Origin: Burkholderiales bacterium
GTDB lineage: Bacteria; Pseudomonadota; Gammaproteobacteria; Burkholderiales; Burkholderiaceae_E
Length of the DNA stretch: 64,000 bases
Direction of reading: 5' to 3'
Assembly: GCA_026399875.1 (NCBI GenBank)
Contig: JAPLQF010000019.1
Coordinates: 111,172-175,171 of the forward strand
The position numbers and the translations under genes are program-made. Positions 1 to 3,724 of the stretch are shown in pieces (within the stretch, counting starts at the first letter, position 1; every line of letters starts with the position of its first letter). A model generated the notes under the pieces. The model was not told the origin of the DNA, did not search any database, and saw only the letters and a program-made list of their open reading frames with translations.

Positions 1-771
1 CCGCTCGAAATCGAGCAGGCCGAACTCATGCAAGGGCAACTGCTGGCCGAAGAGCCGCAAAGAGTGCTGTCGCAGGCGGCACAATTGCTTTCGAGTCTGT
101 CGCACTTTGCAGGTGTCGTCATGACGCCACGGCGCAGCGCGAGCTTTCGGCAGCTCGAGTTCATGCGCCTGTCAGACCGCCGCGTCCTGATGATCATCGT
201 CACCCCCGAGGGCGACGTCCAGAATCGCATCATGCATGTCGAGCGCGACTACACGCCGACCGAGCTCATCGAAGCATCGAACTACATCAATCAGAATTTT
301 GCCGGCCTCGAGTTCAGCGCCATCCTCCAGCGCCTCAAGGGCGAGCTGCTGAGTCTGCGCGACGACATCACCACGCTGCTCCACAAAGCGGTTTCGGCTG
401 GCAGCCAGGCGGCGACCGAGCAGGCCGAAACCGTGATGATCAGCGGTGAGCGCAATCTTGTGGCGGTCCATGAGCTCTCCGACAACCTCGATCGGCTGCG
501 TCAGCTCTTCGGCCTCTTCGAACAGAAAACCGGTCTGATTCAGCTCTTCGATGCTGGCAGTCATGCCGAGGGCGTGCAGATCTTCATCGGCGGCGAGTCG
601 CAACTCGTGCCGATGGACCAGCTGTCGGTGGTGGTCGCTCCCTATGAGGCCGACGGCAAGATCGTCGGCACTCTGGGTGTCATCGGCCCCACCCGGATGG
701 CTTACGACCGGGTGATCCAGATCGTCGACATCACCGCGCGGCTGGTGACCAGCGCCCTGAGCCACGGCTGA
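1..771 (+). CDS. hrcA: heat-inducible transcription repressor HrcA, 3' part
   Basis: The frame is open from the first base, so the N-terminal winged-helix domain lies outside the window. What remains is the dimerisation and GAF-like part, including the HrcA-type stretch [11 protein letters not shown] and the C-terminal segment [20 protein letters not shown]. HrcA represses chaperone genes by binding CIRCE operators and is kept active by GroEL. It sits upstream of hemH, grpE and dnaK, as is common in Burkholderiales. I found no CIRCE inverted repeat (TTAGCACTC-N9-GAGTGCTAA) before grpE or dnaK here, so its targets probably lie elsewhere, such as groESL. Identification is confident; only the length is incomplete. 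Confidence 0.95.
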
Positions 772-812
772 TTCGCGCCGCAGCGTCATGTCCGCTCAAG
801 GAAAGACAGCCC

Positions 813-1871
813 GTGGCATCGGTTGAATTCGAGGGCATCGAGCAGGCCTACCACCACAGTCGCGTCATTCACGGCATCGATCTGGTGGTCGATGATCGCA
901 ATTTCTGCGTGATCACCGGGCCGCAAGCCTGCGGCAAATCAACCCTCCTCAAGCTGGTCGCCGGGCTCGAGTCACCGAGCGCCGGGCGCGTCACGATCGA
1001 TCGGAAGCTGCCCGATCATCGCAGGCTCGCTCGACGCGGCGTCGCCATGGTGCTGCCCGCCGACAGCCTTTTCGGGCATCTGAGCGCTGGCGAAAACATT
1101 GCATTCGGCGTCAGGGCGGCGGCGCGCCCTGCCAGCGAGACCGATCAGCGTGTCCGCGAGGCCGCTCGACTGCTGGGCATCGAGCCCTTCCTGAGCCGAC
1201 GGGTGCGCAACCTGTCCGATGACCATCGTTTGCGAACTTCCATTGCCCGTGCGCTTGCCTGCGAGCCGCAGATCTGTCTTTTCGATGATCCGCTGAGCAG
1301 CCTCGACCGGCTGCTGCAGGCGCAGTTACGGGAGGAAATCCGGCGTCTGCACCGAAAGCTGGGCATCACCTCGATCTACACGACGCGTGACCCGCTCGAA
1401 GCCATGGCGCTGGCCGATCAGCTGGTCGTCATGGGGGCCGGTTGGGTCGCGCAGTCATCGTCTCCCCTGCAGGTCTACGATCGCCCGGCCAACACCTATG
1501 TCGCAAATTACATCGGCAAACCGGCGATGAACATGCTTCGCGGCATCTGGCTGCAGGGCGGCGTCCTGGTCGGAGATGCCCGGGTGCCGGTGCGCAGGCC
1601 GGTCAGCGCTCACGACAATCAGCCGGTGCTGCTCGGAATCCGCCCCCAGCATTTCAGCCTGTCCGGTGCGAGCCCGCTTGCGGCCCGGCTCAGTGCCCTC
1701 GAGTTCACCGGTGCGCAAACCACGATCCGTTGTTTCATCGGGGATCAGCCCCTGATCGTGGTGCTCAACGAACGGGTGTCTTTCGAGTCCGGGGCGATCG
1801 TCCGGCTGACGCCGGAGTTCGACTTGCTGCATGTCTTCGATCTGGCGTCCGGCGACAGCCTGATGCGCTGA
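813..1871 (+). CDS. MalK/UgpC-like ABC ATPase with degenerate catalytic motifs
   Basis: A 352-residue protein with the architecture of sugar-importer ATPases: a nucleotide-binding domain (about 1-230) and a C-terminal OB/TOBE-like domain (about 240-350). The start is GTG with AGGAAAG upstream. Walker A is good (GPQACGKST, 36-44) and the D-loop LSSLD (161-165) is kept. The rest is broken: the Q-loop glutamine is Pro82, the signature LSGGQ reads LSDDH (134-138), the catalytic glutamate after Walker B is Asp159, and the switch histidine is Arg192. By number these match MalK positions Q82, E159 and H192. No permease or binding protein lies nearby. The frame is intact, so it looks like a maintained non-hydrolysing or regulatory ATPase rather than a transporter subunit. 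Confidence 0.85.
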   Translation: MASVEFEGIEQAYHHSRVIHGIDLVVDDRNFCVITGPQACGKSTLLKLVAGLESPSAGRVTIDRKLPDHRRLARRGVAMVLPADSLFGHLSAGENIAFGVRAAARPASETDQRVREAARLLGIEPFLSRRVRNLSDDHRLRTSIARALACEPQICLFDDPLSSLDRLLQAQLREEIRRLHRKLGITSIYTTRDPLEAMALADQLVVMGAGWVAQSSSPLQVYDRPANTYVANYIGKPAMNMLRGIWLQGGVLVGDARVPVRRPVSAHDNQPVLLGIRPQHFSLSGASPLAARLSALEFTGAQTTIRCFIGDQPLIVVLNERVSFESGAIVRLTPEFDLLHVFDLASGDSLMR

Positions 1872-1922
1872 GGCGGTGTCTTCGCGGGGCCGATCCTGGG
1901 CCGACCTTGGTAGACTGCGCGA

Positions 1923-3032
1923 ATGGAACGCTTCAGCAGTCCCGGCTCATTTGACCATGCGAGTCCTCCTCGCACAGCCGTCCTCCTCGTTCAGTTGGGA
2001 ACGCCGACCGCGCCCACTGCGGCGGCGCTGCGCCCATTTCTGAGGCAGTTTCTCGGCGACCCGCGGGTGGTCGAAATCCCTCGCCTGATCTGGTGGCCGA
2101 TCCTGCACGGCATCATTCTCAATACCCGGCCTGCCAAGTCGGCGCACAAGTACGCCAGTGTCTGGATGGACGAGGGTTCACCGCTGATGGTGCATTCGGT
2201 GCGCCAGACCGACCTGCTGCGTCAAAAGCTTGCTGAGCGTGGTCATGATGTCGAACTGGTCCTGGCGATGCGTTATGGCGAACCTTCGATCGCCAGCGTT
2301 CTTGAGTCCCTGCGCGAGCGAAACATGACTCGGTTGCTGGTAGTGCCGATGTATCCGCAATATGCCGGTTCGACCAGTGCAACCGTCTTCGACGAAGCCG
2401 GCCGAGTGCTGCAAGGATGGCGAAACCTGCCCGAGATGCGCTGGGTTAGAAATTTTCATGACGATTCCGGCTACATCGAGGCCCTTGCCGCAAAAGTTCG
2501 TGAGGCCTGGGACCTCGATGGTCGCGGCGAGCGGTTGGTAATGAGCTTTCACGGAGTGCCCCGCCGGACCCTCGAATTGGGCGACCCCTACCACTGCGAG
2601 TGCCTGGTGACCGCTCGCCTCCTGGCCCAGCGACTGGGTCTCAGTCGCGATCAGTGGGTGGTCACGTTCCAGTCGCGCTTTGGCAAAGCGCAATGGCTTC
2701 AGCCCTATACCGAACCCACCCTTGAAGCACTGGCCCGCGAGGGCGTTCGTGAGGTCGATGTGATTTGCCCGGGTTTCGTGGTCGATTGCCTCGAAACGCT
2801 CGAAGAGATTTCGATCGAAGCGAAGTCTGCCTTTCTCAAGGCGGGCGGTCACACATTCCGCTATATCCCGTGCCTGAACGAAGCGCCGGTTTTCATCGAT
2901 GCGCTCGCCTCGCTGGTCGAATCGCATCTTGCAGGATGGCCGACCTCGGCGCAGGTCGTCAGTCAGGCGGTGCAGGACGGTACATTGAGCGAGCGTCGCG
3001 CCCGTGCCCTGGCACTTGGCGCTCTGAGTTGA
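1923..3032 (+). CDS. hemH: ferrochelatase
   Basis: A 369-residue protohaem ferro-lyase that inserts ferrous iron into protoporphyrin IX, the last step of haem synthesis. Family features are the N-terminal VLLVQLGTPTAPT, the SFHGVPRR segment with the metal-site histidine, the signature TFQSRFGKAQWLQPYTEPT, and CPGFVVDCLETLEEI with the conserved acidic residue. The 18 or so residues before the conserved core are a normal betaproteobacterial extension. The other tetrapyrrole gene here is hemL, about 5 kb downstream. No strong ribosome binding site is visible before the ATG. The gene converges on the BON-LysM gene, with a strong hairpin between them. Confidence 0.97.
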   Translation: MERFSSPGSFDHASPPRTAVLLVQLGTPTAPTAAALRPFLRQFLGDPRVVEIPRLIWWPILHGIILNTRPAKSAHKYASVWMDEGSPLMVHSVRQTDLLRQKLAERGHDVELVLAMRYGEPSIASVLESLRERNMTRLLVVPMYPQYAGSTSATVFDEAGRVLQGWRNLPEMRWVRNFHDDSGYIEALAAKVREAWDLDGRGERLVMSFHGVPRRTLELGDPYHCECLVTARLLAQRLGLSRDQWVVTFQSRFGKAQWLQPYTEPTLEALAREGVREVDVICPGFVVDCLETLEEISIEAKSAFLKAGGHTFRYIPCLNEAPVFIDALASLVESHLAGWPTSAQVVSQAVQDGTLSERRARALALGALS

Positions 3033-3036
3033 CCGA

Positions 3037-3074
3037 CCCTGTCGACGCACGCAGCGCAATGCGCGTCGGCAGGG
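3037..3074. terminator. bidirectional hairpin between hemH and the BON-LysM gene
   Basis: The arms CCCTGTCGACGC (3037-3048) and GCGTCGGCAGGG (3063-3074) form a 12-pair stem with one G-U pair. Three further pairs form inside the loop (GCA 3051-3053 with TGC 3060-3062). It starts five bases after the hemH stop and lies between converging genes. Only TTT follows on the plus strand, so it is a weak intrinsic terminator or a processing stop. Confidence 0.6.
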
Positions 3075-3101
3075 CGGTTTCAATCGGGACGGCAGCCGGG
3101 A

Positions 3102-3605
3102 TCAGGCCTTGGGCGGAATCCGCAGGTTCTGGCCGGGGTAGATCTTGTCGGGGTGCGAGAGCATCGGCTTGTTGGCTTCGAAGATCTGCATGTAGGCATT
3201 GCCGTTGCCGTAGAACTGCTGGGCGATTTTCGACAGCGAGTCCCCGCTCTTGACGGTGTAATACTGCGATTCGTCAACCGGCACTTCGACCGACAACTGA
3301 TCGTTGACTGAGGCGACGCCAGCCACATTGCCGCAGCACAGGATGATCTTTTCGCGAGTTGCCTGGTCCGGGGCAATGCCGCGAACCGTGACCGTGCTGC
3401 TGCCTGCGTCGTAGTCGACCAGCAGTCCGGTGGCATCCAGGTTCATCGAGCGAATGTAGGTTTCGATGGCCTTGGCGGCGGCATCGTTGGCGGCAGCGAC
3501 TTTTTCGGGGCTCGGATCCTTGGCGGCAGCCTGCTGCGCGGCCTGAGCCTCGCCCTTGCCGAAAAGCTTTTCACCCGCATCCTTGAAGAAAGACAGCAGA
3601 CCCAT
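3102..3605 (-). CDS. kbp: BON and LysM domain protein, Kbp/YgaU type
   Basis: A 167-residue protein. The start at 3605 was chosen because AAGGAG lies eight bases upstream and the N-terminus MGLLSFFKDAGEKLFG matches this family; an upstream in-frame start has no support. An Ala-rich linker (about 20-50) leads to a BON domain (about 50-110, with LDATGLLVDYDAGSSTVTVRG) and a C-terminal LysM domain (about 115-165, YTVKSGDSLSKIAQQFYGNG). The E. coli homologue YgaU/Kbp is a cytoplasmic potassium-binding protein induced by osmotic stress, and there is no signal peptide here either. The role in potassium sensing is inferred from family membership. Confidence 0.88.
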   Translation of the reverse strand: MGLLSFFKDAGEKLFGKGEAQAAQQAAAKDPSPEKVAAANDAAAKAIETYIRSMNLDATGLLVDYDAGSSTVTVRGIAPDQATREKIILCCGNVAGVASVNDQLSVEVPVDESQYYTVKSGDSLSKIAQQFYGNGNAYMQIFEANKPMLSHPDKIYPGQNLRIPPKA

Positions 3606-3696
3606 TTTGAATGCTCCTTGATGGTTTGTGAGTAGTACGCTTTGAAGCTCGACGAGCCCAAACCGCACCGGATCTTACCCGCTGAATGCGTGGGCA

Positions 3697-3724
3697 CTTG
3701 AATTCCCGACTTTCAACCCAAGGT
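3697..3724 (+). promoter_or_regulatory. candidate sigma-32 promoter of grpE-dnaK-dnaJ
   Basis: CTTGAA at 3697-3702 matches the heat-shock -35 element. After a 14-base spacer comes CCCAAGGT (3717-3724), which shares five of eight positions with the -10 consensus CCCCATNT. It lies about 65 bases before the grpE start. The 12-mer CACTTGAATTCC that includes this -35 recurs at the same position upstream of clpB (54380-54391). Confidence 0.5.

Follow-up and report, generated by a model that had tools for sequence, protein, structure and literature searches.

Degenerate ABC sites have already been described within transporters, and so have orphan MalK-type ATPases that are active. According to PMC7658222, MsmX and MsmK are active MalK-type ATPases encoded by lone genes apart from permeases, and they serve several permeases that lack an ATPase of their own. 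PMC7544095 describes several ABC exporters that carry one degenerate site, ABCB11 among them, in which the catalytic Glu and further residues have been lost yet the site is under selection, and in which the degenerate site opposes a working site in the transporter. For Escherichia coli MalK, PMC3150292 reports that the regulatory domain (RD) makes the dimer more stable and is where MalT and EIIA-Glc bind, and that the tail of MalG contacts the Q-loop. In PMC7863352 the malK mutations for which weaker MalT inhibition is predicted map mostly in or just outside the MalT-interaction region of the RD.

The degenerate MalK/UgpC-type ATPase analysed here, probably once the ATPase subunit of a nutrient importer and found in five genomes (G000-G004) of uncultured Burkholderiales, resembles each of these systems only in part. 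Like MsmX and MsmK it is encoded by a lone gene; unlike those two, it has lost its catalytic motifs, and no clear ATPase-less permease of the MalG type was found in G000-G003 for it to serve. It shares with the ABCB11-type sites the loss of the catalytic Glu and of further residues under continued selection, but it stands alone, belongs to an importer family and, if it forms a homodimer, would have both sites degenerate. From E. coli MalK it differs in having no adjoining permease genes, in its changed catalytic residues and Q-loop stretch, and in having no known MalT partner. A search of the open-licence literature, judged by titles and the beginnings of abstracts, found no report of such a stand-alone MalK-family pseudo-ATPase.

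The window (the whole stretch of DNA analysed, 64,000 nucleotides) opens inside hrcA, whose 3′ part occupies positions 1..771 of the forward strand (Pfam PF01628 HrcA, E 3.7e-65) and whose 5′ end lies outside. The ATPase gene follows on the same strand at 813..1871, with a GTG start, 352 codons for amino acids and no internal stop, and is in turn followed by hemH, encoding ferrochelatase (1923..3032, forward; PF00762 Ferrochelatase, E 1.1e-116). Between hrcA and hemH the window contains neither a permease nor a binding-protein ORF, so that Pfam and the ORF list agree with a preliminary description of this DNA, made from the sequence only, on the flanking genes, the absence of a permease partner and the unbroken reading frame. 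A putative Shine-Dalgarno-like site, AGGAAAGA, stands at 799..806 on the forward strand, 6 bases upstream of the GTG, and is found in all five clade genomes although much of the remaining gap sequence differs, which supports translation of the gene. Together with the spacing, this conserved site suggests that the degenerate ATPase is expressed from the hrcA operon; no sigma-70-like promoter was found in positions 1-3700 of the window. As a separate observation on the downstream gene, TGGTAGACT at positions 1908-1916, 6 bases ahead of the hemH start, is kept in the five degenerate-clade genomes and in G007; it resembles an extended -10 box, and hemH may have a promoter of its own.

The protein retains the overall architecture of its family, with ABC_tran (PF00005, 82.3 bits), OB_MalK (PF17912, 37.0 bits) and TOBE_2 (PF08402, 29.6 bits) all above the gathering thresholds, and its P-loop fold is predicted with high confidence. 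It falls below the NCBIfam cut-offs for both UgpC (NF008653, 306.3 vs 432) and MalK (NF008233, 237.4 vs 568). Upon inspection of the motifs, each of the four catalytic changes named in the preliminary description was confirmed in the ORF: the Q-loop Gln82 is Pro (1056..1058), within a rewritten stretch in which F81, Q82, Y84, A85, Y87 and P88 are all changed; the signature LSGGQ at residues 134-138 reads LSDDH (1212..1226); the catalytic Glu159 is Asp, next to a retained Walker B Asp158 (1284..1289); and the switch His192 is Arg (1386..1388), all on the forward strand. ABC motif residues are given their usual roles throughout, and the stretch from F81 to P88 is presumably where the coupling helices of the permeases dock, as in MalFGK2 structures. 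Walker A had been called intact; its core does persist (G36, G41, K42 and S43 of the P-loop GPQACGKS, 918..941, forward), but its fourth position, Gly39, is Ala in the window protein, and Ala, or Asp in P0004, among the clade members that cover the site. The D-loop Asp165 is kept, as had been described, and so is the signature Ser135. The C-terminal MalK-type RD (OB_MalK plus TOBE_2; residues 236-352, with the start at residue 236 a boundary set by us; 1518..1868, forward) is well predicted, with block-mean pLDDT of 84-98, and it too proved intact, as none of its 13 canonical near-invariant positions has changed.

That last count comes from 116 positions that are near-invariant (at least 97%) in 41 canonical rows, of which 35 are changed in the degenerate clade, 69 kept and 12 mixed. 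The changes are concentrated in the NBD (35/103, vs 0/13 in the C-terminal domain), and within the whole set, motif positions have changed about as often as the rest (11/32 vs 24/84, Fisher P = 0.65). A selective loss of catalytic motifs alone is therefore unsupported: the motif losses that had been described are real, but they form part of a wider rewriting of conserved positions.

The degenerate clade comprises 10 known sequences, namely that of the window, those of four other genomes and five database proteins at 82-97% identity. The ten are not all independent, since P0002 is close to the G003 copy and P0001 to the window's, and some database proteins may share species with clade genomes; the genomes are MAGs, and the copies in G002 and G003 are cut by contig ends. 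Counting only the sites each sequence covers (the partial G003 copy does not reach Gly39), the clade has in common seven departures at the 14 motif sites, at Gly39, Gln82, Gly136, Gly137, Gln138, Glu159 and His192. By comparison, 40 of the 41 canonical tree rows have no motif departure and the other has one, and among 195 more distant listed proteins (114 + 81, with gaps left uncounted in the batch of 114), 193 have none and two have one. Two distant MalK-type proteins each carry one changed catalytic residue, His to Pro at residue 192 in P0010 and Glu to Asp at residue 159 in P0147 (window numbering), with otherwise normal motifs at the checked sites. Both protein searches scored about 8000 candidates each and covered the best 120 of 2796 and of 350 matches; among the matches listed were the five proteins at 82-97% and the window's own fragment, with all others listed at 46% or below, and the 48-49% orthologues described next were absent from both listings. 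A contig scan with a clade profile of two short peptide patterns returned four loci at 82-92%, everything else being at 35% or less; since those orthologues escaped it, the scan is not exhaustive.

Comparison of the hrcA-hemH slot across the 12 genomes of the genus, the window's included, together with the trees below, shows where this gene came from. The degenerate type occupies the slot in five of them (G000-G004); a contig end cuts it in G003, and it is spread over two contigs in G002, where HrcA has 99% identity to that of the window. In five others (G005, G006, G009, G010 and G011), an ATPase with canonical motifs and 48-49% identity to the window protein adjoins hrcA. The full order of hrcA, canonical ATPase, binding protein, two permeases and hemH is intact on one contig in G006, G009 and G011; G010 has the same order over two contigs, the second carrying it from the binding protein on, and in G008 the C-terminal end of the ATPase, the partners and hemH share one contig, with hrcA not found. 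The G009 copy (L038:6013-7071) matches the window protein in its locus after hrcA, its length, its C-terminal domain type and its orthology, and differs in its FQ, LSGGQ, DEP and THD motifs and in its operon with a binding protein (SBP_bac_8/SBP_bac_1) and two BPD_transp_1 permeases; the canonical slot orthologue also passes the NCBIfam UgpC cut-off (514.9 vs 432) while failing that for MalK (408.1).

Some loci depart from these two arrangements. In G005 (L039:5593-9677, one assembly) the ATPase frame is intact and canonical, whereas the partner genes are broken: the binding protein is incomplete and has a stop, the first permease is a C-terminal piece and the second contains a stop, making this locus a possible intermediate. 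In G007, hrcA and hemH lie about 310 bases apart with no ATPase between them, and searches of that gap for operon remnants gave short, chance-level matches and nothing recognisable (best DNA match E 0.008, 18 bases adjoining hemH; best translated matches E 0.003, 15-18 residues, one adjoining hemH and two inside the gap). Among 20 HrcA loci from other genera of the family, drawn from the best 30 HrcA matches with 1.5-kb flanks, hemH lies within 1.5 kb of hrcA in 17 and an ATPase is present in none. One further genome of another genus, G049 (L099:570-3571), also has a MalK-type ATPase in the slot; it has normal motifs and stands alone, with no permeases found within the stretch covered. Taken with G005, this locus suggests that loss of the partners can precede loss of the motifs.

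Phylogenetic trees agree with this gene order. The degenerate and canonical-slot ATPases group as a single clade, apart from the other 29 rows, with support of 100/99 for the whole protein, in a tree that left out three very long rows and four distant paralogues, and the corresponding split received 89/80 in the first tree of all 51 rows. The same clade appears at 98/94 with the RD only, where G009 is weakly placed as sister to the degenerate clade (86/46), and in a combined HrcA and HemH tree the neighbours of the degenerate clade are likewise G009 and, in addition, G007 (bootstrap 79). We conclude that the window protein is orthologous to the canonical importer ATPase of the same slot, as alignment and trees indicate. 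We also considered descent from a second importer in the window's genome (C3 locus, L002) and rejected it on the whole-protein and RD trees, which group the window clade with the slot orthologues; constraining the window clade and the C3-locus ATPases to one group yielded p-AU 0.0501, which is no formal rejection by that test alone. The stem of the degenerate clade is long, at 2.7 changes per site in the first ATPase tree vs 0.13 for HrcA and HemH, under models that differ, and at 0.58 in the RD tree vs 0.18 for the G009 branch, so the RD has itself changed.

From the ATPase, RD and HrcA+HemH trees together with synteny, the simplest history is that the genus ancestor gained an importer operon in the slot, which would since have been erased in G007, while in the window's clade only its ATPase would remain, the binding-protein and permease genes having likely been lost. 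Because the orthologues in sister genomes are normal while close homologues share the losses, the motif losses are a derived state of one clade with a single origin. The preliminary description had regarded close homologues with normal LSGGQ, Glu and His as evidence against it, and the answer divides by distance: homologues at 82-97% are degenerate, whereas the syntenic orthologues at 48-49% have all three.

The degenerate gene is under purifying selection. Pairwise dN/dS within the clade is 0.11-0.26, so the expectation that close homologues would share the changes and show values well below 1 was borne out. In a codon model whose stem-branch length ran to its bound, leaving no stem omega estimable, omega was 0.119 for the degenerate clade and 0.042 for the canonical clade, a 2.8-fold weaker constraint; setting omega to 1 for the degenerate clade was worse by 168.5 lnL, and equal omegas in both clades by 17.4. 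Pooled pairwise omega showed no difference (0.159 degenerate vs 0.166 canonical). Between G000 and G001, at similar dS, dN was 0.100 for the degenerate ATPase, 0.060 for HemH and 0.018 for HrcA. From the codon-model value and the excess of dN over HemH and HrcA, we conclude that constraint on the gene is clear but not tight.

These values bear on the idea of a decaying gene, an operon spacer or a sequencing artefact, whose frame would survive since a stop would harm hemH expression. Such an origin could account for a gene set between two conserved genes with short gaps, and the partner genes of G005 are visibly decaying; however, neutral drift is rejected by the 168.5 lnL, the same motif changes recur in five assemblies and five database clusters, the Shine-Dalgarno-like site is conserved, and G007 shows that the slot can be empty of an ATPase. 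We regard this explanation as scarcely tenable and reject it on the grounds of omega and the identical changes in five assemblies. A maintained pseudo-ATPase, as opposed to decay, is well supported by the low omega (0.12) and by the same changes throughout the clade, and this conserved loss under purifying selection, with loss of activity predicted, would class the protein as a pseudoenzyme.

Where the constraint falls within the protein is informative. Pooled omega is 0.169 for the NBD and 0.140 for the RD in degenerate copies, compared with 0.100 and 0.281 in canonical ones, so that the log ratio of RD to NBD omega, degenerate minus canonical, is -1.24 (95% bootstrap over codons -1.98 to -0.51). 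Identity between the window protein and G009 is 41/40/54% for three NBD regions and 54% for the RD, in contrast to 91/92/89% and 61% between G009 and G005, and 86/89/89% and 62% between G009 and G010. Constraint has thus shifted from the NBD towards the RD, with an NBD that appears rewritten and an RD that is much less changed. The P-loop half (residues 1-88) is the least constrained part, with omega of 0.27 vs 0.13 in canonical copies. The RecA-C part (residues 151-235, omega 0.10) is as constrained as the RD (0.14), and the NBD is for this reason more than a mere linker.

This distribution weighs on the proposal, made in the preliminary description, that the protein is a nucleotide sensor, in which the P-loop would bind ATP or ADP without hydrolysis and its occupancy would switch a binding partner. 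Retained G36, G41, Lys42, Ser43 and Asp158 in every covering copy, an A-loop Tyr at position 13 in all nine clade copies that cover it, and the confidently predicted P-loop fold are what such a sensor would need. Against it stand the Ala or Asp at P-loop Gly39, the two acids that LSDDH would place at the expected gamma-phosphate site, and the relaxation of the P-loop half, which argues against sensing as the main function. We consider the proposal unlikely.

Other importers in the clade genomes provide the setting for two further explanations. The binding protein and permeases missing from the slot have relatives in G000 (C3) and G001 (C176), at about 79-85% to the G009 proteins, in importers that own an ATPase with 64-65% identity to the G009 slot ATPase; in G002-G004, the best binding-protein match is 26% and no second permease was matched at E 1e-30. 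The binding-protein gene at G000 C3 (L049:8919-10224) is split into two overlapping frames and is a single piece in G001 (L087). Each of the 12 MalG-type permease matches in G000-G003 has another MalK-like ATPase on the same contig, while in the fragmented G004 three of four have none at E 1e-40. We therefore see no clear orphan permease awaiting the degenerate ATPase among the contigs of G000-G003.

A working multitask ATPase of the MsmX kind, powering permeases encoded elsewhere, has precedents in MsmX and MsmK (PMC7658222) and in the lone normal-motif ATPase of G049; it is very improbable here, given that the hydrolysis motifs are lost in the window protein and that none of the 12 MalG-type permeases in G000-G003 lacks a same-contig ATPase (in the fragmented G004, three of four lack one at the cut-off used). 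A regulatory half-subunit, in which the protein would contribute the degenerate site of a heterodimer with another MalK-type paralogue on a remaining importer, would parallel the exporters with one such site noted above (PMC7544095), and in each of the five clade genomes one or more additional MalK-type ATPases share a contig with a MalG-type permease (the motifs of these ATPases were checked for the copies in the tree set). We think it improbable, because the Q-loop stretch has been rewritten where the coupling helices of a permease would be expected to dock, each site of the heterodimer would be incomplete, and all 12 MalG-type permease matches in G000-G003 have another ATPase on their contig.

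The reading that we favour, and to which we give an even chance, is that of an orphaned UgpC/MalK-like importer ATPase, kept by selection, that is predicted not to hydrolyse ATP and likely binds partners through its RD. The binding-protein and permease genes have likely gone from the slot, with the ATPase orthologue staying behind; the changes at the Q-loop Gln, the catalytic Glu and the switch His are predicted to abolish ATP hydrolysis, the two Asp residues in place of the signature glycines to prevent an ATP-closed dimer, and the rewritten Q-loop stretch would have removed permease docking. The protein would then dimerise through its RD and bind or hold a regulator or an enzyme, as E. coli MalK does with MalT and EIIA-Glc. 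We favour a MalK-fold binding protein because selection has preserved the fold together with the second RecA part and the RD, and because the RD of MalK binds MalT and EIIA-Glc. The P-loop Lys and Ser, Walker B Asp and D-loop Asp kept in every covering copy count against this reading, and since they are kept, nucleotide binding by the degenerate ATPase may still matter. Also against it are the tight constraint on RecA-C, the change that the RD itself has undergone, the weaker constraint than in the canonical clade by the codon model, and the excess of dN over HemH and HrcA.

A regulatory function is plausible, given the type of the C-terminal domain, that of MalK, and the shift of constraint towards it. 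For the role in stress or haem control raised in the preliminary description, gene position is a weak hint, because sister genomes carry an importer operon in this slot and the position was probably inherited.

The genus thus displays, at one locus, an empty slot, a full operon, broken partners beside an intact ATPase, and a lone rewritten ATPase. More tentatively, and at somewhat less than an even chance, we suggest that these are steps, seen in sister genomes, by which an importer motor becomes a regulator, its NBD turning, once the permeases were lost, into a non-hydrolysing scaffold while its RD became the part that does the work. A MalK-family pseudo-ATPase that stands alone under selection and a canonical orthologue in the same slot of sister genomes amount to a before-and-after pair, which makes it possible to test which part of MalK does the non-transport work and how an enzyme subunit could turn into a regulator after its complex has been lost.
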